Shown in pieces: positions 17,913 to 61,661 of a DNA stretch of 64,000 nucleotides (positions within the stretch are counted from its first letter, which is position 1; the number at the start of each line of letters is the position of its first letter). This stretch comes from Caprimulgus europaeus. Its lineage: Eukaryota > Chordata > Aves > Caprimulgiformes > Caprimulgidae. Both the position numbers and the translations under genes were made by a program. The notes below the pieces were generated by a model. The model was given only the letters and a program-made list of their open reading frames with translations, searched no databases and was not told where the DNA came from. The stretch covers positions 2,160,001 to 2,224,000 of the forward strand of contig OU015550.1 of NCBI GenBank assembly GCA_907165065.1. The letters run 5' to 3'.

Positions 17913-18098
17913 CACAGAATCCCAGACTGGTCTGGGTTGGGAGGGACCTGAAAGCTCATCCAGTCCCAACCCCCCTGCCAGCAGCAGGGACACCTTCCAC
18001 TAGACCAGGTTGCTCAAAGCCTCATCCAACCTGGCCTGGAACACTTCCAGGGAGGAGCAGCCACAGCTTCTCTGGGCAACCTGGGCCAGTGTCTGGAA
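17913..18098 (-). mobile_element. CR1 LINE 3' fragment
   Basis: CACAGAATCCCAGACTGG, then the usual reverse-strand CR1 3' end through CTCTGGGCAACCTGGGCC. Lies directly upstream of the RBM15 CpG island. Confidence 0.9.
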
Positions 18099-18891
18099 CC
18101 TTTGAATGTTTTTTTTTCCCTTCTATGCTAGGCTGGGGAGGGAAAAGTGGAGCAAGAGGACACGGCAGCACTTGGAGGAGCAGGATCCTCAGAGGGATCA
18201 GAGCTGCTTCTGCTCAGCAGGGACCGGGTTTCCCTGACCTGGAGGTCGCAGCAGCTCCAGACCTTTGTCTCAGAGGAAGATGGAAACCAAAGCTGCTCTT
18301 TCCCATCCCTGAGCACCTCTTGAGCTCCAGCTCCTGTATGTAAGATGAGAACGCTGGTGGAAAGTGGAACTACATCAGCATAACCAGCGTTTTCTGTGAT
18401 GGGGAACGCTGCCAATGGTTTGAAGGCCTCGAGTGAGGCGGGAACAGGGCGAGGTGTGACCGTGACAGGCAGACAGTCCCCGGCTCTGCCCCCTGCTCCT
18501 CCCCAGGCTCTGACACCCAGGAGAGGAGTGCTAGGCCCCGGGGCTGACCCCGCACGCTGCTGGCCCAGCAACCTGCGGGGCCCCGCAGCCGCCCCGGGTG
18601 GGGTTTCAGTGTTCCCGGTGCGGGCAGACACAGGCACCGACTGGAGGCCGCGCTGTCGCGACCCGCTTGAACGCTCTCCCCTTCCCCCTCCGCCCTTCCC
18701 TCGGGTGATGGCGAGCCCCAGCCCACTCCGCTGCTGTTTATCCCCGGGCTGTTCGCGCGTTTCTGCGGGCTGAGGCGACAACCGGAGCGCGCACACGCAC
18801 AACCTCCGCGCCGCAGCCCGGCGCGCTCTGAGCCCCCAACCGCGGCCGCACGGCGAACTCTGCTGGGGAACCGCCCTCTTCACCGCTGCGA

Positions 18892-19581
18892 CCAATCAGA
18901 TTCAGAACAAGCATGACTGATCTTCCCTTTAGCCTATCCGCAAGCTAGCTGGCTGCACCCAATCAGATGCCTGGGGAGCTTTTTCTCGCCCAATGATGAA
19001 CGAAGAAGGGAGCTTGGGCAGTAGCCCGCGCTTCTTCGGGAGCGGCGTAGGCTTTAACCAATCAGAGCAGCGCAGGAAAGGTTACCCCTGGCCAATGAGG
19101 AAAGGGGGCGGGGAAAAAGCAGCTCGCGAGAATTTGAGAGGGACGACGGGAACCCGCGTCTGAGCGAGTGGGCCAATGGGGAAAGGCGGGGCGGGGCCGC
19201 AGCAGGACCATTATAACTGACAGGTAAGCGAGCCAATCAGAAGGAGGAGATAAGTTCGCCCCAATGGCCAATGAGCAAGGGAAGTTCTCCCATGGTTGAA
19301 CTGCTGTGATTGACAAGGGAGAGCCCCCAATCAGAAGGCCGCGCCCTTTTTAAGCATCCAATGAGCGAGCGGGGCGGGGATGAGTGTGTGTGTGGGGCAG
19401 CTCTTCCCGCCCTCTCCTCGCAGGCGCGCGAGGCCGGCCGGCTGAATGACAGCACGTTGAGCCAATCGAAAAGGGTAAAGAGAGGAAAATGGGCGGGTCT
19501 TCCGCCCGGCGGGGGGCGAGGGGGTGGGGGTGAGGCGCTCGGTGGCCAACGAGGGCGGCGATCCGGCGGCGAGCAGCCAAT
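18892..19581 (+). promoter_or_regulatory. Array of 13 CCAAT boxes (candidate NF-Y array) upstream of RBM15
   Basis: CCAAT pentamers start at 18892, 18959, 18990, 19058, 19092, 19173, 19233, 19261, 19268, 19327, 19358, 19462 and 19577, all on the plus strand. No ATTGG (the reverse orientation) was seen in the interval. Every copy is followed by C or G and then A or G, matching the NF-Y preference CCAAT[CG][AG]. Many neighbours are 28-35 bp or about twice that apart, a spacing known from NF-Y-driven promoters. The array ends about 140 bp before the RBM15 ATG. Role inferred; motif counts read directly. Confidence 0.75.
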
Positions 19582-19621
19582 GGGCGCCGAGGGGGCGGGG
19601 CTCGTTACCGCCGCGGCTTCC

Positions 19622-19632
19622 AAGATGGCGGC
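19622..19632 (+). promoter_or_regulatory. YY1-type motif AAGATGGCGGC
   Basis: An exact AAGATGGCGGC lies about 90 bp upstream of the RBM15 start codon. It matches the YY1 consensus often found just downstream of the transcription start in CpG-island promoters. Its position suggests that transcription starts at or slightly upstream of it. Confidence 0.6.
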
Positions 19633-19642
19633 GGGTGCGTGA
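19625..19642 (+). other. Short upstream ORF (5 codons) in RBM15 leader
   Basis: ATG GCG GCG GGT GCG TGA. The ATG lies inside the YY1-type motif and the ORF ends 78 bp before the RBM15 ATG. If the transcript starts upstream of it, this uORF could modulate RBM15 translation. No start site can be read from the sequence, so it may lie outside the mRNA. Confidence 0.4.
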
Positions 19643-19720
19643 GCGCGGCGGTCAGTCAGTCGGTGAGGCCGCCGGCGGGAGCAGGGCCGGGGGCGGGAGG
19701 GGGCCCCGCCGCCCACCGCC

Positions 19721-22636
19721 ATGAAGGGCAAGGAGCGTTCGCCGGCCAAAGCCAAGCGTTCGCGGGGCGGCGGGGGCGGTGAGGACTCGGCGTCCTCCTC
19801 CTCTTCGGCGCGGGGTGAACGGAGCAGCAAGAAACCGAGCGGTTCCGGCGGCTCTAACGGTAGCGGCGGGAAAGCGGCGGCAGCTGCGGCTTCTAACGAC
19901 AGTAACAGCGGGAGCAGCCGGCGCGCTCCGCACCCGGACAAGACCGGCCGAGCCGGCAGCCGCGAGTACGAAGCCGGGGCAGCAGCAGCAGCAGCAGCGA
20001 CAGCGGCGGGAGGCGGAGGCAGCCGGCACAGTTACGGCAGCGGCAAAACCGCGGAGGCGTCACGGAGCAGCAGCAGCCGCAGCGGTGGGGGTGAGTCCCG
20101 GGCACCGGCAGCGGCTCCGTCTTCCTCTTCTTCCACCGAGTCGGGCGGTGGGGAATACAAGACGCTGAAGATCAGCGAGCTGGGCTCGGCGCTGAGCGAT
20201 GAGGCGGTGGAGGACGGGCTTTTCCATGAATTTAAACGTTTCGGAGATGTAAGCGTTAAAATCAGCCGCCTCCCGCCCGGTACCGGCGCTACCGATGAAC
20301 GCGTGGCCTTTGTTAACTTCCGCCGCCCCGAGGACGCCCGCGCTGCCAAGCACGCCCGCGGCCGCCTGGTGCTCTACGACCGCCCGTTAAAAATCGAAGC
20401 CGTTTACGTTGGAGGTGCCGGAGGGAGCAGCCGACGCCGCAGCAGCCGTTCCCCGGCCTTACTGGATAAGGAATCTCCCTACGGCACGGCAGCCATAGGG
20501 GTGGCGGCCGCGGCGGCAGCGGCTGTTCGACACCCACCGACCGGAGCGACTCAACGGGCTTTGTCACCTGCCGGTAGCGGCGGGGCTCTGGGTTATCGAG
20601 ATTACCGGTTACAGCAGCTCGCCCTGGGCCGTTTGCCGCCTCCGCCCCCTCTCCCCAGGGAGTTGGAGAGGGAGAGGGATTACGGGGGGTTCTACGAAGC
20701 GCGAGTGCGGCCGGCTTACGGGCTGGAGCGGGTGGCTGGTGTGGCGGCTGCCGGGGGTTTTCGTGGAGGAGGAGGAGGTGGTGGTGGTGCTGGTGCTGGT
20801 GGTGCTGGAGCTGCTGGTGAGGAGGAGATCAGCCCTGAGGATGACCAGAGAGCCAACCGCACGTTATTCCTGGGGAATTTGGACATCACCGTGAGCGAGT
20901 CAGATCTCCGGCGAGCTTTTGACCGCTTTGGGGTCATTACGGAGGTGGACATCAAACGGCCGGGGCGGGGGCAAACCAGCACCTACGGCTTTCTGAAGTT
21001 TGAAAACCTCGACATGGCTCATCGAGCCAAATTGGCCATGTCAGGAAAAGTGCTTTTACGTAACCCCATCAAGATTGGTTATGGGAAAGCCACCCCAACT
21101 ACCAGGCTTTGGGTGGGTGGTCTTGGGCCTTGGGTGCCCCTGGCTGCCCTAGCTCGGGAGTTTGATCGCTTTGGTACCATTCGTACCATTGATTATCGCA
21201 AAGGTGATTCCTGGGCCTATATCCAGTATGAGAGCCTGGACGCGGCGCAGGCAGCCTGCACCCACATGAGGGGTTTTCCTTTGGGTGGCCCAGATCGTCG
21301 CCTCCGCGTTGACTTTGCTGACACTGAGCATCGGTACCAGCAACCCTACCTACAGCCTCTGCCTTTGCCACCTCCTGCTCACTACGAGCTCGTGGCGGAG
21401 GCGGCTGCTTTTGGGGCTCACCGAGGTGCCCCACCTGATCCTTTACGGGGGGCTCGGGACCGGACACCACCGTTACTCTATAGAGACCGTGATAGAGACC
21501 TTTATGCTGAGACAGAGTGGGTGCCCCCTCCACCCCCTGTACGGGAGAGGAGTAACCGGGCAGCTGCCTATGACCCACTGGAAAGCCTCGAACGCCGCCG
21601 GGATGGTTGGTCCTTGGAAAGGGACCGAGGGGAGAGGGAATTGGGCAGCAGTAGCAGGGATCAACCTAGGAAACGGAAACTGGCCGAGGATGGAGCCCGG
21701 CATTTAGACCGTTCTCCAGACAGTGAACGTTCTTCTTCCTCCCGAAAGCGTCACTGTTTAACCACAACCTCTCCACCAGACCGCAGCCCCGAGCTCCTTG
21801 GAGGGAGGGAACGTTACAGTAGTGACCCTGAACGTTCATCTTCCCGCTTGCTCCTCTTGGAGCGACCGTCACCTGTCCGGGAATCGCGGAGGGGGAGCCT
21901 GGAACGGGGTCAAAATGAAAAGCGCGACCGTAAGAATTCCGCCGAACGGGAGCGGAAACATCGCGCTTCTGCGGCAGCCGCTGCCCAGGAGTGCAAAAGT
22001 CCAGCCAAAAAGGATGAGCGGGCTCCAGAAGGAGCTGGTGGAGGTTCCCGCCTGAAACCTCCTCCTCAAAAACAGCAGCAGGATGGAGCAGCTCAGGCCG
22101 GGGGAGCTCCCAAGCTGTGCTTGGCTTGGCAGGGGATGCTCCTGCTGAAGAACAGCAACTTCCCATCCAACATGCATCTGCTTCAGGGGGACCTCGGTGT
22201 TGCCAGCAGCCTCCTGGTGGAAGGAGCGACTGGTGGGAAAGTAGCTCAGCTCAAGATCACCCAACGGCTTCGTCTGGACCAGCCTAAGCTGGACGAGGTC
22301 AATCGTCGCATCAAGGTGGCGGGGCCCAACGGCTACGCCATCCTTTTGGCTGTGCCTGGCGCATCGGACAACCGCTCCGCGGCCGGAGCTGCCGATGCTG
22401 CCACCACCTCCACTCAAAGGCCCCTCAGGAATCTGGTGTCCTATCTAAAGCAAAAGCAGGCTGCTGGGGTGATCAGCCTCCCCGTGGGGGGTAACAAAGA
22501 CAAGGAGAACAGCGGGGTCCTGCACGCTTTTCCACCCTGTGATTTCTCCCAACAGTTCCTGGACTCCACGGCCAAGGCGTTGGCTAAATCAGAGGATGAC
22601 TATCTGGTCATGATCATTGTCCGTGGGGCATCCTAA
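19721..22636 (+). CDS. RBM15: RNA-binding motif protein 15 (SPEN/Spenito family), intronless CDS
   Basis: Single open frame of 971 codons. SPEN-family RBM15 acts in the nucleus: it binds RNA through its RRMs, recruits the WTAP/METTL3 m6A writer to targets including Xist, and its SPOC domain binds phospho-peptide and chromatin partners (family knowledge). Seen here: a low-complexity Ser/Gly/Ala N-terminus; RRM1 at about 147-229; a Gly/Ala-rich linker; RRM2 at about 379-454 with RNP2 'LFLGNL' and RNP1 'TYGFLKF'; RRM3 at about 462-535 with RNP2 'LWVGGL' and RNP1 'SWAYIQY'; an Arg/Ser/Glu-rich middle; and SPOC at about 798-971, ending 'VMIIVRGAS'. The start is the ATG in context CCGCCATGA, opening 'MKGKERSP', as in vertebrate orthologues from memory. 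The paralogue RBM15B has the same domains, but the SLC16A4/LAMTOR5/PROK1 neighbours identify RBM15. No frameshift is seen. Mammals also make spliced C-terminal variants; no convincing downstream coding exon was found here. Confidence 0.96.
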   Translation: MKGKERSPAKAKRSRGGGGGEDSASSSSSARGERSSKKPSGSGGSNGSGGKAAAAAASNDSNSGSSRRAPHPDKTGRAGSREYEAGAAAAAAATAAGGGGSRHSYGSGKTAEASRSSSSRSGGGESRAPAAAPSSSSSTESGGGEYKTLKISELGSALSDEAVEDGLFHEFKRFGDVSVKISRLPPGTGATDERVAFVNFRRPEDARAAKHARGRLVLYDRPLKIEAVYVGGAGGSSRRRSSRSPALLDKESPYGTAAIGVAAAAAAAVRHPPTGATQRALSPAGSGGALGYRDYRLQQLALGRLPPPPPLPRELERERDYGGFYEARVRPAYGLERVAGVAAAGGFRGGGGGGGGAGAGGAGAAGEEEISPEDDQRANRTLFLGNLDITVSESDLRRAFDRFGVITEVDIKRPGRGQTSTYGFLKFENLDMAHRAKLAMSGKVLLRNPIKIGYGKATPTTRLWVGGLGPWVPLAALAREFDRFGTIRTIDYRKGDSWAYIQYESLDAAQAACTHMRGFPLGGPDRRLRVDFADTEHRYQQPYLQPLPLPPPAHYELVAEAAAFGAHRGAPPDPLRGARDRTPPLLYRDRDRDLYAETEWVPPPPPVRERSNRAAAYDPLESLERRRDGWSLERDRGERELGSSSRDQPRKRKLAEDGARHLDRSPDSERSSSSRKRHCLTTTSPPDRSPELLGGRERYSSDPERSSSRLLLLERPSPVRESRRGSLERGQNEKRDRKNSAERERKHRASAAAAAQECKSPAKKDERAPEGAGGGSRLKPPPQKQQQDGAAQAGGAPKLCLAWQGMLLLKNSNFPSNMHLLQGDLGVASSLLVEGATGGKVAQLKITQRLRLDQPKLDEVNRRIKVAGPNGYAILLAVPGASDNRSAAGAADAATTSTQRPLRNLVSYLKQKQAAGVISLPVGGNKDKENSGVLHAFPPCDFSQQFLDSTAKALAKSEDDYLVMIIVRGAS

Positions 22637-33852: not shown

Positions 33853-34150
33853 TGTTTCTCACAGTGTTGCTGTGGGTGAGACTCTTGCTGTGGTTTTGGG
33901 TGTAAAGCAGCCGAGGTGCCAAGAACGTGGCAACCTGAGATCCCAGGTGATGGGTTAAACCCCAAACTTCTTGTCCCTCACCCTGGTCTCAGACCTTCAC
34001 GTGGCTTTGTGATTCCTGGTTGGCTCTTCAAGCTCCCCCAGAGCTGGGGTTGGAGAAATGGCTGAAATGCTTCCAGCCCAGCCCTTGGAGGGGATTTGAT
34101 TTTGTTTTATCATTTTATTAATTTTTTAATTTTATTATTATTTTCTTTTA

Positions 34151-35013
34151 CTCTTTTTTTCTCCTCTCCTCTCCCTCTCCCTCTCCCTCTCCCTCTCCCT
34201 CTCCCTCTCCCTCTCCCTCTCCCTCTCCCTCTCCCTCTCCCTCTCCCTCTCCCTCTCCCTCTCCCTCTCCCTCTCCCTCTCCCTCTCCCTCTCCCTCTCC
34301 CTCTCCCTCTCCCTCTCCCTCTCCCTCTCCCTCTCCCTCTCCCTCTCCCTCTCCCTCTCCCTCTCCCTCTCCCTCTCCCTCTCCCTCTCCCTCTCCCTCT
34401 CCCTCTCCCTCTCCCTCTCCCTCTCCCTCTCCTCTCCTCTCCTCTCCCTCTCCTCTCCTCTCCTCTCCTCTCCGTCCTTTTTGCCTTTTTCTTTTCTTTT
34501 CTTTTCTTTTCTTTTCTTTTCTTTTCTTTTCTTTTCTTTTCTTTTCTTTTCTTTTCTTTTCTTTTCTTTTCTTTTCTTTTCTTTTCTTTCCTTTCCTTTC
34601 CTTTCCTTTCCTTTCCTTTCCTTTCCTTTCCTTTCCTTTCCTTTCCTTTCCTTTCCTTTCCTTTCCTTTCCTTTCCTTTCCTTTCCTTTCCTTTCCTTTC
34701 CTTTCCTTTCCTTTCCTTTCCTTTCCTTTCCTTTCCTTTCCTTTCCTTTCCTTTCCTTTCCTTTCCTTTCCTTTCCTTTCCTTTCCTTTCCTTTCCTTTC
34801 CTTTCCTTTCCTTTCCTTTCCTTTCCTTTCCTTTCCTTTCCTTTCCTTTCCTTTCCTTTCCTTTCCTTTCCTTTCCTTTCCTTTCCTTTCCTTTCCTTTC
34901 CTTTCCTTTCCTTTTCTTTTCTTTTCTTTTCTTTTCTTTCCTTTTCTTTCCTTTTCTTTCCTTTTCTTTCCTTTTCTTTCCTTTTCTTTCCTTTTCCCCT
35001 TTCCCCTTTCCCC
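34151..35013 (+). repeat. 863-bp polypyrimidine satellite tract
   Basis: Only C and T except for G at 34474 and 34483. Blocks: CTCCCT hexamers (about 34172-34430), TCTCC-like pentamers, CTTTT pentamers (34491-34590), CTTTC pentamers (about 34590-34912), then alternating CTTTC/CTTTT. The complementary strand is pure purine. Confidence 0.95.
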
Positions 35014-35770
35014 ATTATTTTCCTATTTTAATCACTTGGGATCAGCTCTCTCTGTATCTCTCCTGGGTTTTTCAGTTGTTGGCATCAGTGAGGAGCGGTG
35101 GGGAACTCCCAGCCTTGGTTATTAGTAGATTTGAAATTCTTTTTTCTTATTGAGGAGGGAGCCTGACCATGCAGAGAGGTTTATTTTGTGTCCTGAGGAT
35201 TGGTTAAATCCATGGTTTAAAATCCCTACCCTCATTTTCAGTGAGCCAGAGCCACAAATACAGGATGAGGAAGGGGAACCTCTATCTCACAGCCAGGGGT
35301 GTACTTTGGATGGATAAAACAGTGATATAAAATAATCCCAGCGTGAATTAAGGACTTGGGCAGTGTCCTTCTTGATGTGCTCTCTGATGGCACCATAGCT
35401 TTGATAGACCTGAGCTGAGTCTGGGCAGCTTTTTAGCCTGGGTTATGTAAAATGAGTGGAAATGGGGATTATGATCCAGCAGGTGCCCACCCTGTACGTC
35501 CTCCTGCCAAAATACCTGGCACAGGTGCTGGAGGTGGGTCCCAATGGGTGACAGAGGCTGTCCTGGCTCTTCAGAGCAGGGCTGAGATGGCAGCAAAGCC
35601 CCAGTGCTCTTGTGTTACTGTTCAATCCCTTTTTGGCTGAAGATTCAGCTCCTGATTGCCTGGAAATAAATCATTGAATAATGATGGGAAAGTATTTTCC
35701 CTCCTGTAGCTCCCGGGAAGGACGGGAGCATCGCGGCCGAGTTGTTTGGACAAAACAAACCCAGGAATAA

Positions 35771-46600: not shown

Positions 46601-49600
46601 TTTTTAATTATTATTTTTTTTTCTCTGCTTTGGTGCCTGCCATTGCCAAGTGCCTGTGGCTGCACCAAAGTGGTCTGGAAAAATTCAATTAAGGGCTGTG
46701 GAACTCAGCAGAAAACTCTTGAAATGCCTTTCAGTAAAAATAAGAGAGAGGAGTTTGCTGTTTGATCTCTTTTTCTTTTTCAAGCTACAGAAAAAGCAGA
46801 ATATTAAGAAGAAATATGCTTCAGAGATTTTAATTTTTATAAAGGGCAGAAGCCCAGTGGTTTTGGGATTTTTTTTAAAGGTTCAGCACATTTTTGATAC
46901 TCAATTTTTACATTTCTCAACAAGTTTTTATGAACTAAAGATCAGAGGAGCACTCAGTGGCAGCTGATGTCTTGCTGACCACTGTGTCCCTCCTACTCTT
47001 CATTGAAAATGTCAGGTTCATTGCTGCTCTCTCCTTGATGGCTGATGTCATTTCTCAATGTTATCCAGCACTCTGGAAGTCACTTTTATTTTTGTACAAT
47101 AAAATATTTTATAATGACTGAGGTTGGAGCTGCTTTCTTAACTCAAGGTGACTTTAGTCTTTAATCCCTGTTTATAATCAGGCATATTTTAATTTTTTTG
47201 GGGGGGGTTATGGGTTGGTTTTTTCCCACCTTGGAGATGAATGTGCCCAATCTAAATAGCTAGATTCAATTTAATATGTTTGTTTTCCCCAATATTGATT
47301 TTTTTTCTCTCTCTACACCCATTCCTGGGTCAAACTGGAGCTTTTTGAATGCTGAGTGACTGGATTCCTGTGGTTTGTGGGTTGAAGCTGTGGTGGGGAG
47401 GCTTTAGGAGGACAGATAGCACTGATGTAGCTGGAAATGTGTGTGTGTTCGGTGTGGTGAGGCTGTGGGATCATCTGGCTGAGGCTGAGAGAACCACCCA
47501 CCATGTGAGAGAGACTCTGAACAGCTACAGAAGGCAACTCTCTATATAGAGAAGAAGGGGAAGGGCTGGGAGCTCCACCTCTTCCATGAAGATTTATTCT
47601 AGGACCTATTTCTTGACAAGATTGGTGTTGCTTTCCTTTCCTTTCCTATTTTGGTATCTTTGGCATTAGAAATGAATTGAAAAGATTGTTCTTTTTTTTG
47701 CCTACCAGCCACTGCAATGAGGTAAGAAGCATCCATGCTGCTGATGCCCAACGTCCTGGCTCTTGCTACCAGGTGGAAGATGGGCACGAAGTAAGCCAAG
47801 TGGCTGAACAAAAAAGACCAGGTGAAAATGAAGAAGATGGGATCTTTCAGTGGGGAGAAGTCAAGGAGAGGCTGTGAATTTTCTTTTTCAGGCAGTGGAA
47901 GGGCTTTGTAGCTTCTTTTGGCCTTGGTGGCTATTTCTGGTGAGCAGCTGTCCATGGGGGGTTTCTCAAGCCCTTCCAAAGCTGATGTATTTATGGAACT
48001 GGAGACATCTCTGCCATGGGACATCATGAGTCTCTCTCTGGGCTGAAGGTCCTGTCCACTGCAAAGCTGTTTTTCCCTGTCAGTGGTCTCATCTAAGCAT
48101 CCATCAAGGGTTTCTGAGTCTGTCTTTGCCATTGAAGACCCATGGTCTTGGTTTTGAGCAGAGGAGCCTTGAGGCAGTCGGGTGCTGGCGGGTCGCAGCA
48201 GCATGCTGGAAGGCACAAGGTTTAACATGATGCCCCCAAAAATCAGGAGGGTACCTGAGGGAAGACAGGTGATATTTTGGTTTGGTTTGGTTTGGTTTGG
48301 TTTGGTTTGGTTTGGTTTGGTTTGGTTTGGTTTGGTTTGGGTTTTTTTCTTGGCATGAGAAAGGAGGAGCAGTAGGAAGTGATCTTTCTAGATCTAGGGT
48401 GTAGTTTGTGTTGGAAGTGGAACAAGCTCTGTCTTAAGGAGGAGGTATCTTACAGGAGCTTTTATTCCTGTTTTTCTAGCTGGAAGTCCCTTTCACTGTG
48501 ATGCACGTGACAAACCCAGAGCTCCTTCTGGGATTTGGGAGCTCATTTTGTTTTCCCTCATTAGAAAAGTCCATGACACGTGATGGACCTTCGAGATAGC
48601 CTGAAACAGTGTAGTCAAAATAGGGATTTTCAGTTTTGGTTTTGGTTTCTGAGGTCTCTGTTTTGACTCTGACTTAAGTTTAATGACTGACTCAGTGTTT
48701 AATCATTAACCAGATGTCCCCAAACCATCCTAGAAGAGGCAGAGTTGTTCCTTGGTCCATCCAATCTTAACACCCTCTTAATGCTGGTGAATGTGGGTAG
48801 ATGGGAGATGTCCTCACCTTGCCAACCATAAAAATCAATGAGGAGTTGAGTGAAGGGCGCTATGAGAAATGTCAGACCCATCCCGGAGCGGGCGATGGCG
48901 TTGGAGAAAGCCAACCGCGTCCTGCAGCGCTTGGCCATCGTCACCGCGGCCGCCTGGTAGAGGCAAGCGAACCCCATCCCTGCAGGAAGGGGAGAAATGA
49001 GATGTCCATGCCCCAGAAGTGGCTGCTTCATATCATGAGCTTCAGGGATTCAAAGTCACATCATCTCAAGCTCATTGTCCCCATAGGATATGTCATCTCC
49101 AAAGTGTCCTGTCCTCCAACACCCCCAAAGTCACATCATCCCAAGCTCGTTGTCCCCATAGGACATGTCATCTCCAAAGTGTCCTGTCCTCCAACACCCC
49201 CAAAGTCACATCATCCCAAGCTCGTTGTCCCCATAGGACATGTCATCTCCAAAGTGTCCCATCCTCCAACACCCCCAAAGTCACATCATCCTCATCTCAT
49301 TGTCCCCATAGGATATGTCATCTCCAAAGTGTCCTGTCCTCCAACACCCCCAAAGTCACATCATCCCAAGCTTGTTGTCCCCATAGGATGTCATCTCTAA
49401 AGTGTCCCATCCTCCAACACCCCCAAAGTCACATCATCCCAAGCTTGTTGTCCCCATAGGACATGTCATCTCCAAAGTGTCCCATCCTCCAACACCCCCA
49501 AAGTCACATCATCTCAAGCTCATTGTCCCCACAGGATATGTCATCTCCAAAGTGTCCTGTCCTTCAACACCCCCAAAGTCAAACCATCCCAAGCTTGTTG

Positions 49601-52600
49601 TCCCCATAGGATATGTCATCTCCAAAGTGTCCTGTCCTTCAACACCCCCAAAGTCACATCATCCCAATCTCATTGTCCCCATAGGACATGTCATCTCCAA
49701 AGTGTCCCATCCTCCAACACCCCCAAAGTCACATCATCTCAAGCTCATTGTCCCCACAGGATATGTCATCTCCAAAGTGTCCTCCAACACCCCCAAAGTC
49801 ACATCATCTCAATCTCATTGTCCCCTTGCTGCTCTGCAGGGTTCATGGGCTGGAAGTGGGGGGACTTTTGGTGTTGCAGGCAGTGGAGAATTGAGATTTC
49901 ATGGGTGGTGTTTAGTATCTGGGGTTTTGGAGGCACTTTTAGTGAGGGATTTGAAAAGGCCAAGATTCCTGTTGGATCTGGGAAAAAAATCAAGGTTAGT
50001 TGGGTCTAGTGTGTTGAAACTGGTATTTAATGTTCCTGAGCCTGGAGAAGAGGAGACTGAGAGGAGATCTCCTGGCGGTCTGGAACTTCCTCCCCAGGGG
50101 CAGAGGAGGGGCAGGCGCTGAGCTCTTCTCTCTGGCCACCAACGCCAGGAGCAGAGGCCATGGCAGGAAGATGTGGCAGGGGAGGGGGAGGTTGGCCATG
50201 AGGAAAAGGTTCTTGAGGCAGAGGGTGGTGGAGCACTGGCACAGGCTCCCCAGGGAGGTGCTGATGGCCCCAAGGCTGACAAGATTCCAGCAGCATTTGG
50301 CCAAGGCCCTCAGGGACATGGTGTGAGTGTTGGGATTGTCCTGTGCAGGGACAGGAGCTGGACTCCATGATCCTTGTAGGTCCCTCCAACTCACAACATC
50401 CAATGATTCTGTGGTTCCATGATTCTAAGCTTTGAGTTTTCAGACAACATCTCATAGAAAGGAGCTGGGGGTGCTTTGCTATCAGAGGTTTAACATGCAA
50501 GGAGCTGCTTTTACCCATCATGCAGAGGAAAATCTCTGCCCAACTGTAAGTTGCAGGCTGCTCACCTGGGAGGAGTCCCATGGAGATGCAGAGGAAGGGG
50601 ACACTGGTGGCCTGTGTGCTCAGCAGACAGCCCCCTGCGACCAAGCCAGCCCCGATGATGGAGGTCGGCCGCTCGCCCAGCCTCCTGCAGACCATGGCCA
50701 CGAGTGGGGCTGGAAGGGAAAGGAGGGAGAAATCTTGAGCTGAAGATGACAAATGAGACTTTGAAGGACTTGGGGACTTGTACTGGGGTCGTGGCATCTG
50801 GTGCTGTGGTGAGTGGCCCGTGTGCCACCCTGGGGAGGGAGGGGGTGACACAAGACATTCAGGATGGGTTAATACTGAGGAGAGCAGCCAAGAAACCTTG
50901 CCTCATACCCTGGGAGCTCAGGGGACAGGGCAGGGGAAGGAATCAAAGCCCAAGCTTCCAGATGTCCTCAACCTGCTTCCTACTGCTCAGCTGCCAGGAA
51001 TTATTCAGCAACTGGTTTGCCTGGAGATGTTCCTACTGGTTTTTGGGGTGAGGCTTTGCTCTGCATGTAGATAATAACCCTGCTACAGGGAGATGTGGTG
51101 ACACACACGGTCCCTGTCCTGCTAGGACACCTGGGTACCAGCCATGTCCAGCTTCCAGCACTCTGTGATGGACATGGGATCTGCAGAACATCCTCAGTGT
51201 CCCTGAGAGCAAAGCAAATGGGTTGGAGGTTGAAGTGCTGTCCCCATCCCCACGGCTGCCACCTCACCTCCCAAGAAGCGCAGAGAGGACATGATGGAGC
51301 CGATCCAGCTGATTTGCTCCGAGGAGCCTCCCACCTCCTCTTGGAAAGCCACAAAGAAAATCCCAAAGGTCTTGAGCATCCCCATCACGAGTACATTGAC
51401 CTGCAGCAGAAGCAGATGGAGGTGAGATGCCAAAGGGGGTGGTTGGGCAGGAGGAAAAAGCTTTTCATTCTGCCTTTTTTTTTTATTTTAATAGAAATTT
51501 CTTGGATAATATTTAGTGTTTGGGGAAAAACTGGGACAGGTTAACTGGTGTAGAGTGTGTTGGGGAAGATCAGCAGGATGGACTTGTGGTGGCCATGCTG
51601 CAGTTTCATTTTAACAGATCCTCAAAAAAAACCTGTGCAAAGTGGCTTTTCCAAAGAAAAAGAACAAAATATCCCTGCAGCCTGACTCTTGTAGGGGGTC
51701 TTTTTGCTCTGTAGGTTATTTTTTTAATACTAAAAAATAATCTAAATGGATCTCAGCACTCTGAAACATCACTAGGAGGTGATGAGGTGTTGAGTGGAGC
51801 AAGGATGGACATTAGCTGCTGTGGTTTCCCAGGCTTGTCCTGCCATGGGGGCAAAGGACAGTTTGTGTCCTCAATTTTAACCCCCTCCCTCCTCCCTGGT
51901 AGCGGGTGGTTAATAATTGGCAGCCAGTTGGATGGAGTGGAACTGGGGAAAGCTCTCCTAGCTGGGGGGATGGTGTTGTCTTCCTCCCTGATGAAGATGG
52001 TGTCTGGTATTAAAGCCTGGAGCATGGAGAATTGGTGCCTTTAAGTGGTGCTGAAGTGTCTGGTCCTCCTGGGAGAGCAGAACCCAGTGTGCACGTGCTG
52101 CCTCACCTTGTGCTGCTCCTGCCATCAGTCCCTGGGGACCCATCTCAGCTCCGATCCTCTGCTGGCCCAGGATGGGATCTAACCCTTCCCAAAGGTACAA
52201 GACCCACCTTTGGGGTCTGACACCCCAGTGATGGTGTGTATGAGTAAGGAAAAATCATCTTGGCATTGCAAGCTGCCCTTTGGCCCTGAGCTGCAGGTTG
52301 GACACCTCCATTTCTGTCAGTTGAGATGTCTCCAGGTGGCATTCCCAAGGGGAAGGTGTGTGACACAGGTAATTTTTGCCCTTAGCTCGGTGGGATCAGC
52401 CTGTCCTGTCCTCTGCTCCACGTGAGTGAGACTCCAGACTTTCTCTCTGCCCCAGCTTCAGGAGGGTTGAGGTGAATTTGTTCTCTGCTTACCAAGAAGA
52501 AGTGGAACACCACTGCCCACGCCCACCCTCCGTCTGCAGCTCTGGTGCCTGGGCTCCTCCTGGCTGCCGGAGCCTCCGGATCTTCCTCTTCCCTTTCCCC

Positions 52601-56062: not shown

Positions 56063-57954
56063 CTAGAACGAGACCAGTTGAGGCAGTTGAGAAGCCAGCT
56101 GTGCTGAGGAGAAGCTGATGTGGGTGGGGGGTGGATGGGGGTATTGTTCAGTGGGTGCAGAACCCCCCAGCTCTGTGCTAGACCTGGGGGTCGCTGCATT
56201 TCTTCTGTCCACTCCCATGACCAGTGCTGGAGAAGTCTTTGCCTACCACACTCACTGGCATGGGCTTCATCATCTGGGGGGATCCCAAGTGTGGGAGAAG
56301 CATCAACATCAGAAGGGCATGGACCTACTGGAGCCAGCCCAGAGGAGGCCACGAGGGTGATGTGAGGGCTAGAGCAGCTCTGCTGTGAGGACAGGCTGAG
56401 AGAGTTGGGGCTGTTCAGCCTGGAGAAGAGAAGGCTCCAGGGAGACCTTCCAGTGGCCTCCCAGTACCTGAAGGGGCTCCAGGAAGGCTGGGGAGGGACT
56501 TTGGCCAAGGGCAGGGAGTGACAGAACAAGGGGTGATTGGCTTGGAACTGGCAGAGGGGAGATGGAGCTGAGATGTGAGGAAGAAATTGTTTGGTGTGAG
56601 GGTGGTGAGACCCTGGCCCAGGTTGGCCAGAGAAGCTGTGGCTGCTCCTCCCTGGAAGTGTTCTCGGCCAGGTTGGATGAGGCTTTGAGCAACCTGGTCT
56701 AGTGGAAGGTGTCCCTGCTGCTGGCAGGGGGGTTGGGACTGGATGAGCTTGAAGGTCCCTCCCAACCCAAACCAGTCTGGGGTTCTGTGAATTCACATGC
56801 TTGTGGCAGTGACGACCTTCCCCCCACGACTTCAGGGCTTCCCCCACATTTGCCAGTTTAGCTGAAGATGAGAAGAGCTGCTCTAGGGATCTGACTGGGG
56901 AGGACACCAGGGCTTTGGGGAAAGGTGAACAGGGAGAAAAGCAGCACCCCTGGGCTGGAAACTCACCCGCTGTCCGACTCCAGGCACACCACGGGTGTAT
57001 CGGTCGGGTCGGAGGTGAGCTTGGCTGCCTGCTGGGCAAGGACAGAGATGATGCCAGCGTGCTCATCCGAGAGGGTCCCTCTGCCTGTGAGAGGTGGGAG
57101 GAGTTGGTTGAAGCCACACGTCCTGTAACAGCACTTTGTGTTGAAGCAACCACCCCGCCCAGGGCTGCTTGGGCCCCGTTGTCTCCCTTGGGGGCTGATG
57201 CAGCATTTCCTCAAATTGTTGCTCTCAGACCACCAAAAAAGTCCGAATTTAAGAGGCAGAAAGAGCTGGGCCCGTTTAATTCCTGTGGGGGGGGATGCAG
57301 AGTACTAGGGTGCAGGAGGGTGCCTGGGGGACCTTGGGGACCCCACTGAAGCGAGGGCAGGGGAAAGCTGCAGTAGGGCGGTGCCTGGTGTCCCCAAACT
57401 GGGTGGGCTCGGGCTGGTGTCCCCAGACTGGGAGGGCTCCCCATGGGGCAGGGCTCCCCATAGGGCAGACCCCAGTGTCCCCAAACTGGAAGAGCTCCTG
57501 GGCAGGGGAGGAGCAGGGTGGGCAGGGGCTGGTGTCCCCAAACTGGGAGGGCTCCCACAGGGCAGGGCCCGGTGCCCCCCTGCCCCCGGGAGTCCTTAGA
57601 GGGACCGGGCAGGCCCCGGTGCTCCCACCCCCGGGCTCTTCGGTAGGGCAGACCCCGGAACCCCCCTCCCGCGGCGGTGCTCGGTTACTTACAGCCCAAG
57701 TTGAGCCCCTGCGAGTCGGTGCACAGGACGCCCACCACAGCCGGGCTCTTCATGCTGCGGGGGGGAGACAGAACCGGTCAGCGCCGGGCTGGGCCCGCAC
57801 TCCCACGCCGGGCTTCGGAGCGGCCTAGACCCCGCTCCCCCCCGTACCCCCGCCCCGGCGGGACACGGCCCGGCCCGGCCAGCCCTGCCCCTGCCCCCCG
57901 TGTCCCCCTCGGTCCCTACGTGTCCTCCAGGTGCTGCTCCAGCGTCCCCTCCAT
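56002..57954 (-). CDS. LAMTOR5: Ragulator subunit LAMTOR5 (HBXIP), 4 exons, complete
   Basis: Exons in transcript order: 57954-57920, 57754-57693, 57084-56967, 56062-56002. All introns are GT-AG with matching phase, giving 276 nt and 91 aa, the usual length of the short LAMTOR5 form. The product starts [14 protein letters not shown] and contains [19 protein letters not shown] and [16 protein letters not shown], nearly identical to the mammalian protein as I remember it; the C-terminus is [16 protein letters not shown]5 has a roadblock/LC7-like fold and is one of five Ragulator subunits that anchor Rag GTPases on the lysosome and support mTORC1 activation. The promoter is CpG-rich and TATA-less. 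Intron 1 is only 165 bp; intron 3 carries a CR1. Confidence 0.98.
56318..56791 (+). mobile_element. CR1 LINE fragment in LAMTOR5 intron 3
   Basis: Sense CR1 with GAGGACAGGCTGAGAGAGTT and GGCTCCAGGGAGACCTTCCA, ending CAGTCTGGGGTTCTGTGA. Antisense within the LAMTOR5 pre-mRNA. Confidence 0.92.
56967..57084 (-). CDS. LAMTOR5: LAMTOR5 exon 3
   Basis: 118 nt between CTCACAG and GTGAGT. Encodes [18 protein letters not shown] through VVCLESDSG, the central helix and strand of the roadblock fold. Confidence 0.98.
57386..57568 (+). repeat. Diverged G-rich tandem repeat in LAMTOR5 intron 2
   Basis: Repeated CTGGTGTCCCCAAACTGGGA and GGGCTCCCCATGGGGCAGGG modules, at least four copies with substitutions and spacing changes. 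Confidence 0.75.
57693..57754 (-). CDS. LAMTOR5: LAMTOR5 exon 2
   Basis: 62 nt between CCCGCAG and GTAAGT. Encodes [21 protein letters not shown] plus the first base of Cys. Confidence 0.97.
57920..57954 (-). CDS. LAMTOR5: LAMTOR5 exon 1 coding part
   Basis: Encodes [11 protein letters not shown] plus two bases of a Thr codon, followed by donor GTAGGG. The ATG lies in a strong context (GGCGGGATGG). Confidence 0.95.
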
Positions 57955-58125
57955 CCCGCCGGGCCCCGCGCCCGCTTCGCTTCCGCCCTACCCGGCCCGT
58001 CCTGGCAGCGGCTTCACCCACGTGACCCGCGGGGACGGCGGCTCCGCGGAGCCAAAAGGCCTCGGTGAGGGGAGGCGCCCGCCTGGCTTCAACCGGGGCC
58101 TCCAGAGAGTCACGGATCGCAGCTG

Positions 58126-58800
58126 AGACTGGAAAAGATCTCAAAGATCGTCAGATCCAACTGTCAACCTCCGTGGCCGCTGACCCCTGTCCCTCAGCAC
58201 TGTGTCTGCACGGCTCTTCAATCCCTCCAGGGATGGGGACTCCACCACTGCCCTGGGCAACCCCTGCCAATGCCTCAGAACCCTTTCAGCAAAGAAATTC
58301 TTCCTCACATCCCATCTCAACTGCCCTGGCCACAACTGGAGCCCATTTCCTCTTGTCCTGTCCCTTGGTCCTTGGTTGAACAGACCCACCCCCACCTCTC
58401 TGCACCCTCCTGTCAGGGACTTGGACAGAGCCAGAAGGTCTCCCCTCAGCCTCCTTTTCTCCAGGCTCAGCACCCCCAGTTCCCTCAGCCGGGAACTCAG
58501 CACACTTGTGCTCCAGACCCTTCCCCAGCTCCGTTCCCTTCTCTGGACACGCTCCAGCACCTCCAGGTCCTGCTTGGAGTCAGGGGCCCAACACTGAACC
58601 CAGCACTCGAGCTGCGGCCTCACCAGTGCCCAGTGCAGGGGGAAGAGAACTTCCCTGCTCCTACTGGCCACACTGGTGCTGATCCAGGCCAGGATGCCCT
58701 TGGCCACCTGGGCACTCTGCTGGCTCATGTTCAGCCACTATGGACCAACACCCCCAGGTCCTCCTCCACCAGCAGCTCTCCAGCCACTCCCGGGGGCTCT
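58126..58800 (-). mobile_element. CR1 LINE fragment upstream of LAMTOR5
   Basis: Minus-strand CR1, near-identical over most of its length to the 14625-15215 element. It begins about 170 bp upstream of the LAMTOR5 ATG, so it bounds the promoter. Confidence 0.93.
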
Positions 58801-59080
58801 GTGCCCTAATCCAGGGGTGCTTTTGTGAATCCTGCACCCCTTTCCCCCCAGATCAGCCCTCCCTGAGTGCCCATTTCCCCACAGAGCAGGGGGCACAGTT
58901 GGGGTCCTTGAGGGTTTATTTTCCCCCTCCCCTTTCTCCACCATCACGCTCCTGAGTCGTTTATTCGTCTTTCCCACAGCAAAATGACATTCAAGGGATG
59001 TTTAAATGGTGGTGGCTCTACAGACCCTCCCCAGCCAGAGCATCCTCCCACAGCTGGACCACAGCTGTCCCACAGGATGC

Positions 59081-59608
59081 AGGGACACAGGGACATGGGG
59101 GGACATGGGGACATGGGGGGGACATGGGGATGACATGGGAGGGACATGGGGACATGGGCTGGATATGGGGGGACATGGAGACATGAGGGGGACATAGGGA
59201 TGACATGGGAGGGACATGGGGACATGGGCTGGACATGGGGGGACATGGGGGACATGGGGAACATGGGGATGACATGGGAGGGACATGGGGACACGGGGAC
59301 ATGAGGGTATGAGCTGGACATGGGGGGACATGGGGGACATGGGGACAACATGGGTGGGACATGGGGGAACATGAGGACATGGGGGACATGGGGACAACAT
59401 GGGAGGGACACGGGGACACAGGGACATGGGCTGGACATGGGGGGACATGGGGACATGGGGGACATGGGGACAACATGGGAGGGACATGGGGGCACGGGGG
59501 ACATGGGGATGACATGGGAGGGACACGGGGACATGGGGACATGGGGACATGGGGGACATGGGGACGACATGGGAGGGACATGGGGACACAGGGACACGGG
59601 GACATGGG
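59081..59608 (+). repeat. GGGGACATG minisatellite between LAMTOR5 and PROK1
   Basis: About 530 bp of irregular GGGGACATGG(G)GGACATG units with a higher-order pattern containing ATGACATGGGAGGGACATGG and GGGCTGGACATGGGGGGACA. G-rich on the plus strand, with many G3-G6 runs. Confidence 0.92.
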
Positions 59609-61661
59609 CTGGAGCCCACTATTTGCAGCAAGAAGGATCACACTGGCTTGGAACAATGATATCAGATGTGCAGGGGTGTCAGGACCCCCCTACCCCATTA
59701 TCCCAGTGCAGAGAGGTGTTAAAGTGTGATCAAGCTCAGCTTGATTTTCCTGCCAGGAGCTCCCCAAAACCCAGCCTGGTCCCCAGCAGGGAGGAGGAGG
59801 TGATTTATGGTGGGTGCATGGCAGAGCTCGGCAGCACTAATACGGTGTCAGCTGAAGCCGCTCCCAGCTGCGCCTGGCGATAGATCTGGGTTTGTCAGGT
59901 TGGAAAATTAAAATGTTATTGATGGGGGAAGTGAAATGCAATGTTTTGGGTTTTTTTTTTTTAATTTATTTTATTTTTCTTTCAACTTAATCAAGCTGGG
60001 AGCAGCACCAAGGGCTCTCATCCTGCCTGCCCAGGGGCTCCCCACTGCATCCCACCCTTCTGGGATGACTTGGATTTATATTTTGCCTTTTTTTTGAGTA
60101 ATTTTTAAAGTGATTTCTTCCCCCTTGAGGAAGAAATGCAGGATAAAAATACAAATATACCCTAGGCAAGCCAGGGGCTGCCTCCCTACCATCCCAGCAA
60201 CATCTTCTCAAGGAAACCTCCTCAAAACGACGGTTCCTGAGCCATTCCCAGCTGCAGGATTTCTAGAGGGAAGGATTTTTGGGAGAGTTGGGATTAATTA
60301 ATTCAAGCCCAGGTGGAGGAGGCTTTAGGGAAGCAGCAGAACAGCTGCCACATCAAAAGAAGTGCTGGTCTCCGGGCAGGGAAATGCCTGGGCTATTTTT
60401 AACTAATTAAAGAGATGATTTAGCACTGGACTGATACTCTACAAAAGAAATTAAAGGGGAAAAAAAAGCCCGATTCCACCGCGTGGCTCTGATCAAAGCC
60501 ATATTTCAAATCCCAGCCCATGTTTTCCCCCAGGGCTGAGCCCTCGTGCCTGCTCCCAGTCCCTAATTTGAACCCCCCCTGGACCAGCTTTGGGGAGGAT
60601 GCTCCATCCCCTTGGCAGGAGCCCCAAAATCAGGCTCAGGGATGTTTATTCCTGAGTGGAAAAAACCCAGAAAGGATGAAATTCCTAATGCTGGAGCCCT
60701 GACACCACAGGGATGGTACCTGGCAAGCTAGGACTGGAAAAATCCATCTTGCCAGGTCAGAATCTCAAACTTAACTTTATTTTTGAGGAAAAAAATGGAG
60801 TTTTATTTCCTGTCCTTGTTGTGCAAAGGATTTTACCCATGCAGAGCACAACTACGGGCACTGGGAGCTTGGTCCTGGGGATCCTTGGCTGGATCCAGGC
60901 TGGACCCTGGGAGCTCAGGATTGTGCATTGGCCATGGTCAGGTACTTAAATACTTATTTTTTTAATTTTTTTTATTTATTTATCTATTTCTGCACTCCCA
61001 AAGCAGCTGCATGGGATGAGGTGGCAGGTGACAAACAGCCCCAGCTCCATCAGGACATCAACGCCCACCAAGGCTGCAGAGATTCCTCGCTCCTCTCTCA
61101 CTGGATGGATGTGACCGTGGGGGCTGGTGGGGTTTTTATCCAGCCCCCCCTCATCCCTGAGCACATCGAGATGTTGTCCTTTGCATCCTCCCAGGATGTA
61201 CAAGTTAAAAAAGAAGCCATCAATTCCATTTTTTCCTGCTTTTTTAGCTACTTTCGCAATCCCTGATCTTATTCCTTCGTGCTCCCAGGAGCTGCGCCAA
61301 ATGCGGTTGGAGATATAGGGGATATACTCCAAGCCATAAATCAACACATTTACACATTAAATTCAGATACAAACATACCTTCATTACTGAAAAAAGATAT
61401 TATTCACTCTCTGCCTTCTTTTATTCGCAGAAATAAATGCAACTGAGGCTCGGTTCCTACAGGATATTTATCACGGAGCCGCGTTATTACACACGCGTTA
61501 TTACCAGCCGAGGACTAGCAGGCGAACTTTCTTCTTGTGTTTTCTTTTAGCTAAATAATCACCAATTCTTAATTTAATCCTTAAGTACACCTGTCAGGGA
61601 TAAATAGAGAGGTACCTGGAAAATCCAGCTGGGTTGGCTTCTCTGAAAAATAACCCTGGGA
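59609..61661. other. LAMTOR5-PROK1 intergenic sequence
   Basis: No repeat family seen. 60976-61347 is open on both strands for over 100 codons without recognisable homology. 61380-61620 is AT-rich with a direct repeat GCGTTATTAC (61481 and 61495) and may belong to PROK1 regulation. Confidence 0.4.

Follow-up and report, generated by a model that had tools for sequence, protein, structure and literature searches.

Thirteen CCAAT boxes on one strand upstream of an avian RBM15 gene: a probable extreme NF-Y promoter array

Introduction

What would read a promoter in which thirteen CCAAT boxes all face the same way, and how could such a promoter arise? The question is raised by the genome of Caprimulgus europaeus, in a 64,000-nucleotide stretch (the window, meaning all of the DNA analysed here) where the boxes are crowded into 690 bp upstream of RBM15, the gene for an m6A-writer protein acting in blood-cell fate (PMC6540575, PMC4775220). 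An earlier note on this DNA had counted the boxes and offered three readings: a large NF-Y platform, an element that keeps the island free of nucleosomes, or the tandem expansion of a promoter module. Among the matches listed for RBM15 with NF-Y, CCAAT or promoter, no title or abstract opening describes such an array, which falls short of proving its absence from print.

Results

The gene downstream of the array is a single plus-strand open frame of 971 aa (19721..22636) with three RRM stretches and a SPOC domain, the latter matching the solved RBM15 SPOC with an E value of 5e-101. It has the RRM-plus-SPOC make-up of SPEN-family RBM15 and is distinct from the paralogue RBM15B, which bears out the name first given to it. 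In the 1.18-Gb genome that contains the window, which all own-genome searches below also cover, the search recovered RBM15 itself; beyond that, one relative on C12 was hit in two pieces, with 56% identity across its best stretch, and a short match with 34% identity came from C29. We take the C12 relative to be RBM15B; a frame ending just upstream of it is presumably MANF. The genome_contigs and viral_contigs collections, in which the window's own genome is the sole vertebrate, gave 69 and 9 pattern matches, respectively, and 0 relatives.

A CpG-rich region, seen as two overlapping runs of 200-bp windows, extends over the promoter and into the early part of the coding region (18521..21040). Within it, a motif scan placed AAGATGGCGGC at 19622..19632 on the plus strand, which we take to be a YY1-type motif of the kind typically found near start sites; the pattern occurs 810 times in the genome vs 18 for its reversed form. 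This motif is taken to mark the start-site region, from which we infer the start site itself. Purine bias of the coding strand is strong at 19001-20000 (GC skew 0.20, AT skew 0.27), covering the promoter and the 5' end of RBM15. Elsewhere in the window, a second CpG-rich island (57501-58500) never exceeds one CCAAT in 700 bp, C/T-rich simple repeats extending over about 1 kb (34066-35031) are open in several frames, and minisatellites at 48801-50121 and 58944-59689 can be read as repetitive open frames, one of them of PMSPCP type. Human RBM15 is listed as a candidate DREAM/CHR target in Table 1 of PMC4705690. A scan for the CHR in the form TTYRAA within 18400-19760 found a single site, at 18419, some 1.2 kb 5' of the YY1-type motif, and none near the start, so we set aside CDE/CHR control of RBM15 through p53-p21-DREAM for that form of the motif. 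The AP-1 motif TGASTCA, which c-Fos does without at direct CCAAT dimers (PMC4982600), is absent between 18400 and 19760.

Recounting the 690 bp from 18892 to 19581 gave exactly the 13:0 ratio that had been claimed, with plus-strand CCAAT starting at 18892, 18959, 18990, 19058, 19092, 19173, 19233, 19261, 19268, 19327, 19358, 19462 and 19577 and none on the minus strand; ATTGG, the minus-strand form, does not occur anywhere across 18401-19800. One more plus-strand CCAAT, the 14th, is found at 18412, 480 bp 5' of the array. All 13 boxes fit CCAAT[CG][AG], again as first described. CCAATSR is the NF-Y consensus with its flank preference, and every one of the 13 satisfies it. Over 5000 dinucleotide shuffles, the plus strand of a 690-bp stretch averaged 0.71 boxes with a maximum of 5, in line with the chance expectation of about 0.7 given at the outset, and the minus strand averaged 1.05; local composition therefore accounts for neither the number of boxes nor their strand. 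With starts from 18001 to 19700 left out, the densest 690 bp of the window holds 5 boxes, on both strands. Only 7 bp separate the boxes at 19261 and 19268, so that they overlap sterically; since two bound NF-Y complexes are reported to need at least 24 bp between them (PMC4982600), at most 12 of the array's boxes could be filled simultaneously.

The spacing of the boxes is uneven, with successive start-to-start gaps of 67, 31, 68, 34, 81, 60, 28, 7, 59, 31, 104 and 115 bp, yet four adjacent gaps fall at 28-34 bp vs 0.95 expected under uniform placement with fixed ends (p 0.011). In all four of these pairs CCAATC stands upstream and CCAATG downstream (permutation p 0.006). Two pairs have boxes 31 bp apart, CCAATCAG then CCAATGAT at 18959..18994 and CCAATCAG then CCAATGAG at 19327..19379, the second followed by the GC box GGGGCGGGG 13 bp 3'. 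Another, with 34 bp between CCAATCAG and CCAATGAG, also has GGGGCGGGG 13 bp 3' of its second box (19058..19113). The remaining one (19233..19272) joins CCAATCAG to the two boxes at 19261 and 19268, of which only one could be filled, at a spacing of 28 or 35 bp. All four lie on the plus strand, as does a degenerate fifth pair at 19546..19600, in which CCAACGAG, one base off (CCAACG at 19546), sits 31 bp before the most proximal box, CCAATGGG at 19577, with GGGGCGGGG 15 bp further on. The array thus contains same-strand pairs near 31 bp, with gaps of 31, 34, 28 and 31 bp plus the degenerate 31, of the direct-dimer class for which PMC4982600 reports a peak at 31 bp and human maxima at 31 and 41 bp. 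Over the array as a whole, neither helical phasing (p 0.66) nor a 34-bp long period (p 0.15) was significant, and gaps below 24 bp were depleted just marginally (p 0.065).

Partner motifs keep to similarly narrow distances. All four GGGGCGGGG boxes of the promoter (19105, 19188, 19371 and 19592) stand 13-15 bp 3' of a CCAATG box (p 6e-5), one of them beside the single CCAATGGG box at 19173..19196 on the plus strand, 15 bp from it; all three TGACA occurrences in 18860-19580 (19218, 19311 and 19447) stand 15-16 bp 5' of a CCAATC box (p 4e-4). Both p-values are post hoc, the offsets having been noticed before testing. The three upstream sites, all on the plus strand, are TGACAG, the Prep/Meis HEXA motif as named in PMC6023610, 15 bp 5' of CCAATCAG (19218..19237); TGATTGACAA, which matches the Pbx:Prep DECA motif except in its last base, followed after a 10-bp gap by CCAATCAG (19307..19331); and TGACAG 15 bp 5' of CCAATCGA (19447..19466). 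All three therefore show the TALE/NF-Y composite arrangement, in which a DECA or HEXA motif precedes CCAAT by about 10 bp; their gaps are 9-10 bp, and the DECA departs from the consensus in its last base. When any 6-mer recurring at a fixed offset was scored, with no offsets chosen, the observed score was reached in 15 of 245 cyclic shifts, so that on the RBM15 promoter alone the order is suggestive at most. Two of 774 shifts retained all four GC boxes together with all three TGACA, and shifts by plus or minus one base must do so by arithmetic.

The same arrangements recur elsewhere in the genome. Two boxes followed by GGGGCGGGG occur 18 times, vs 0 for the reversed pattern, with two of the 18 in the RBM15 promoter; in the other 16 (13 loci) the boxes are 30-32 bp apart in nine (a single local tandem repeat, L159, supplies three of these) and 42 bp apart in three. 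TGATTGACA followed by CCAATSR after 4-18 bp occurs 39 times vs 16 reversed, and 23 of these 39, five of them copies of two repeated sequences, have start-to-start distances of 18-20 bp among 15 possible distances; in the RBM15 promoter the distance is 20. The box spacings of 30-32 and 42 bp come close to the human maxima of 31 and 41 bp (PMC4982600). The geometries published for NF-Y/TALE sites and NF-Y dimers are thus present in this bird's genome, and the RBM15 array conforms to them. CCAATSR triplets were hardly in excess genome-wide (324 forward and 506 reverse vs 295 and 476 in the reversed control), a count that we left unused, many of the places among those listed being repeats.

How unusual the array is was gauged on promoters anchored on AAGATGGCGGC, a motif assumed to mark them: 80 loci from the first 100 of the 810 places, from C1 to C3, extended by 60 loci from 76 places of a longer AAGATGGCGGC form. 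Of these 140, one was dropped with the wrong side fetched (L050) and one was not orientable (L116), leaving 138. In the 760 bp upstream of the motif, every sampled place has at most four same-strand boxes, against 13 at RBM15. Counting both strands, 88 places have none, 47 have one to three and three have four, in agreement with the earlier statement that NF-Y promoters usually carry one to three; the maximum among the 103 CpG-rich places is also four. The RBM15B promoter has one box, on the minus strand.

A further 20 loci, picked for CCAAT triplets or composites, yielded comparable arrays. The closest is a CpG island on C20 (L160, G000:C20:886716-887317, positions 446-1047), whose densest 690 bp carries 12:0 same-strand CCAAT with irregular gaps, the boxes being non-tandem; it has one box-box-GC-box composite and a perfect TGATTGACAG 19 bp 5' of a CCAAT. 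A minus-strand open frame in the neighbouring L178 is, we presume, NLK; the array occupies the other strand from that gene and is 1.2-1.8 kb away from the start codon presumed for NLK. Two other loci carry 10:0 boxes over 2 kb (L155) and 7:1 (L173). Larger counts occur in CpG-poor DNA. One tandem repeat (L174, G000:C33:1113980-1115078, positions 580-1678) has 31:0 CCAAT, 26 of them CCAATCAG, with 24 of 30 gaps at 28-34 bp and strongly diverged flanks. A minus-strand frame in L176 (2634-2918) looks to us like MAP2K7 exon 1, and the repeat may lie in the first intron of MAP2K7; L176 carries 14 more CCAAT on the same strand as that repeat and 0 on the opposite one. Another array (L175, G000:C26:1813430-1814176, positions 530-1276), on the contig that also carries the RBM15 array and about 365 kb away from it, has 24:0 CCAAT; 21 are CCAATCAG, and part of the array consists of 24/32-bp tandem repeats. 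At G000:C45:61259-62754 there is a 31-bp satellite in which nearly all units among those listed carry CCAATGAG, and whose period equals the favoured NF-Y dimer spacing. Given the arrays on C20, C33 and C26, the RBM15 array is extreme among the sampled promoters and not unique.

The suggestion that a promoter module had expanded in tandem did not hold up. A tandem repeat search found none over the array, a repeat-family search found short families containing the box itself, and a genome search with the 761-bp array, which skips simple repeats and very common words, matched the array itself and nothing else; the array thus shows neither the tandem unit nor the several genomic copies of an LTR12-like element or minisatellite. 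Mean identity of the box flanks was slightly raised (0.298 vs a null mean of 0.270, 95th percentile 0.294, 99th 0.304), with the best pairs within the null, and we put this down to purine-rich 3' flanks and the GC boxes. A masked self-comparison of the array reached a best score of 11 (null mean 11.7), and gapped alignments of the spacers gave p 0.27, 0.37 and 0.53. One-mismatch boxes stand at background, with 4 seen against 4.5 expected when the cores are removed and 9.4 when they are kept. Tandem module expansion was therefore rejected, with one possible exception: 19171-19196 and 19090-19113 are 88% alike over 26 aligned positions (E 0.015), so a 26-bp unit may have been locally duplicated once. 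That the cores are intact while their flanks show no clear kinship suggests boxes gained separately, or kept for long by selection, and not copied recently.

Discussion

Taken together, these observations lead us to regard it as probable that the proximal promoter of avian RBM15 is a CpG-island promoter with an extreme homotypic NF-Y/Sp/TALE array that holds a long nucleosome-free region; the array is best accounted for as an extreme case within a known promoter class. The NF-Y platform first proposed for this DNA is supported by the agreement of the boxes with published dimer and TALE spacings, by the nearby GC boxes and by the recurrence of dimer-plus-GC-box and TALE-CCAAT arrangements across the genome. 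Up to 12 NF-Y trimers would occupy about 690 bp, several of them as direct dimers about 31 bp apart, with Sp1/Sp3 at the GC boxes 3' of four boxes and Pbx/Prep at the TALE sites 5' of three. NF-Y would then keep nucleosomes off the region, recruit Sp2, Sp1/3 and coactivators, and fix initiation near 19.6 kb, giving RBM15 transcription that would be robust, ubiquitous and proliferation-linked, with the boxes mutually redundant.

Several of these steps have parallels in published work. In mouse, NF-Y is reported to maintain nucleosome depletion at promoters and to fix start sites, and promoters that shift their start on loss of NF-YA carry more CCAAT (PMC6624317); by analogy with that work it is a reasonable inference that the RBM15 array keeps its island nucleosome-free, as had been suggested. 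NF-Y recruits Sp2 at tandem CCAAT (PMC4368557), Sp1 synergises with NF-Y (PMC7793273), and sites with a TALE motif 10 bp from CCAAT are co-bound (PMC6023610, PMC11802806). Counting against our explanation, the most distant boxes stand about 600-700 bp 5' of the YY1-type motif, vs a median of 94 bp between NF-Y sites and the start in mouse (PMC6624317).

Comparison with known systems shows where the RBM15 array belongs and where it departs. It resembles the c-Fos/NF-YB promoters of human cells in the 31-bp distance between boxes of one strand and in the GC boxes close to them, in a setting where direct repeats are reported to be far commoner than inverted ones, with one exception among region classes (PMC4982600); the dimer is the unit there, whereas a single promoter at RBM15 combines four dimers with a degenerate one and additional boxes. 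It is also similar to the Sp2/NF-Y promoters of mouse fibroblasts, with tandem CCAAT about 35 bp apart and the strongest Sp2 peaks holding several pairs; Sp2/NF-Y occupancy is reported for those (PMC4368557), while the RBM15 array is read from sequence and has TALE sites and GC boxes interleaved. Like the TALE composites (PMC6023610, PMC11802806), it places TGATTGACAA 10 bp from CCAAT, and its two TGACAG keep almost to that register with a gap of 9 bp, but its DECA ends in A, not G, and it belongs to a gene promoter as opposed to a zebrafish developmental programme. The NLK-side island shares its one-sided (12:0), non-tandem, CpG-rich character, a TALE-type site and the box-box-GC-box composite; unlike the RBM15 array, it lies on the strand opposite to the adjoining gene, 1.2-1.8 kb from the presumed start codon. 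Human LTR12/ERV9 U3 likewise gathers many NF-Y sites in a promoter/enhancer, built however on a repeated tandem unit of about 41 nt with GATA/MZF1 motifs (PMC11853044), and no second copy or tandem unit of the RBM15 array was found. The minisatellites on C33 and C26 are one-sided CCAATCAG arrays too, there mostly at a 24-34 bp pitch, but differ as tandem repeats in CpG-poor DNA.

Two further readings of the boxes as NF-Y sites seem to us unlikely. One is that most boxes are redundant, one to three near the start being functional and the distal ones weakly selected by-products of site gain in a CCAAT-tolerant promoter. This would agree with the 135 of 138 sampled places that have 0-3 boxes, with the mouse median of 94 bp from the start (PMC6624317), and with the alligator AURKB promoter, in which a box at -1.4 kb is reported to be without significant effect and two proximal boxes to have one (PMC13274144). 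However, the distal boxes share in the 13:0 strand bias and in the spacings of pairs, GC boxes and TALE sites, and drift should yield boxes on both strands together with near-miss boxes, which stand at background (4 vs 4.5/9.4). The other, bolder and just as doubtful, is a one-way NF-Y ladder: repeated modules of a TALE site, CCAATC, about 31 bp, CCAATG and a GC box, facing the gene, would form one long directional platform, taking the place of three to four nucleosomes and setting both direction and level of RBM15 initiation. With the NLK-side array, it would be one of a small avian class of CpG-island ladders, distinct from promoters with one to three boxes.

We find it quite improbable that the array is a decayed minisatellite or LTR with a CCAAT unit of about 32 bp, retained through NF-Y binding. 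Such material does exist in the same genome, in minisatellites mostly of 24-34 bp pitch (31 boxes on C33, 24 on C26) and the 31-bp satellite on C45, and human LTR12 consists of 5-17 repeats of about 41 nt with NF-Y sites (PMC11853044); several gaps of the array lie near multiples of 32, and the two segments beginning at 19090 and 19171 are 88% alike. Yet no tandem repeat covers the array, its sole genome match outside simple repeats and very common words is itself, its flanks, once masked, resemble one another no more than shuffled ones do, despite a slightly raised mean identity (0.298 vs a null 95th percentile of 0.294), its 34-bp periodicity is not significant (p 0.15), and it is CpG-rich where the C33 and C26 arrays are CpG-poor.

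Other proteins that bind CCAAT-like sites include CUX1, NF-I and C/EBP-type factors, and it is very unlikely that one of these is the main reader of the boxes. NFIC motifs overlap CCAAT, and CUX1 falls in a cluster of factors co-associated with NF-Y (PMC7793273), but a core that does not vary, followed by C/G (position 6) and A/G (position 7), the pairs at about 31 bp and the TALE and GC-box partners fit NF-Y better than a palindromic NF-I site. Chance or the composition of a purine-rich CpG island can be dismissed, the coding strand around the promoter being indeed purine-rich but composition slightly favouring the minus strand, with none of 5000 shuffles exceeding 5 boxes and none of 103 CpG-rich sampled places exceeding 4 in all.

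If NF-Y does fill the array, RBM15 would be under strong NF-Y control, and the promoter would be a natural experiment on how the dose, orientation and spacing of NF-Y determine nucleosome-free length and the direction of transcription, its value as such stemming from a number of boxes far above that of the sampled promoters. More generally, comparison within the same genome shows that NF-Y spacing rules known from human, mouse and zebrafish are legible in bird DNA as well.
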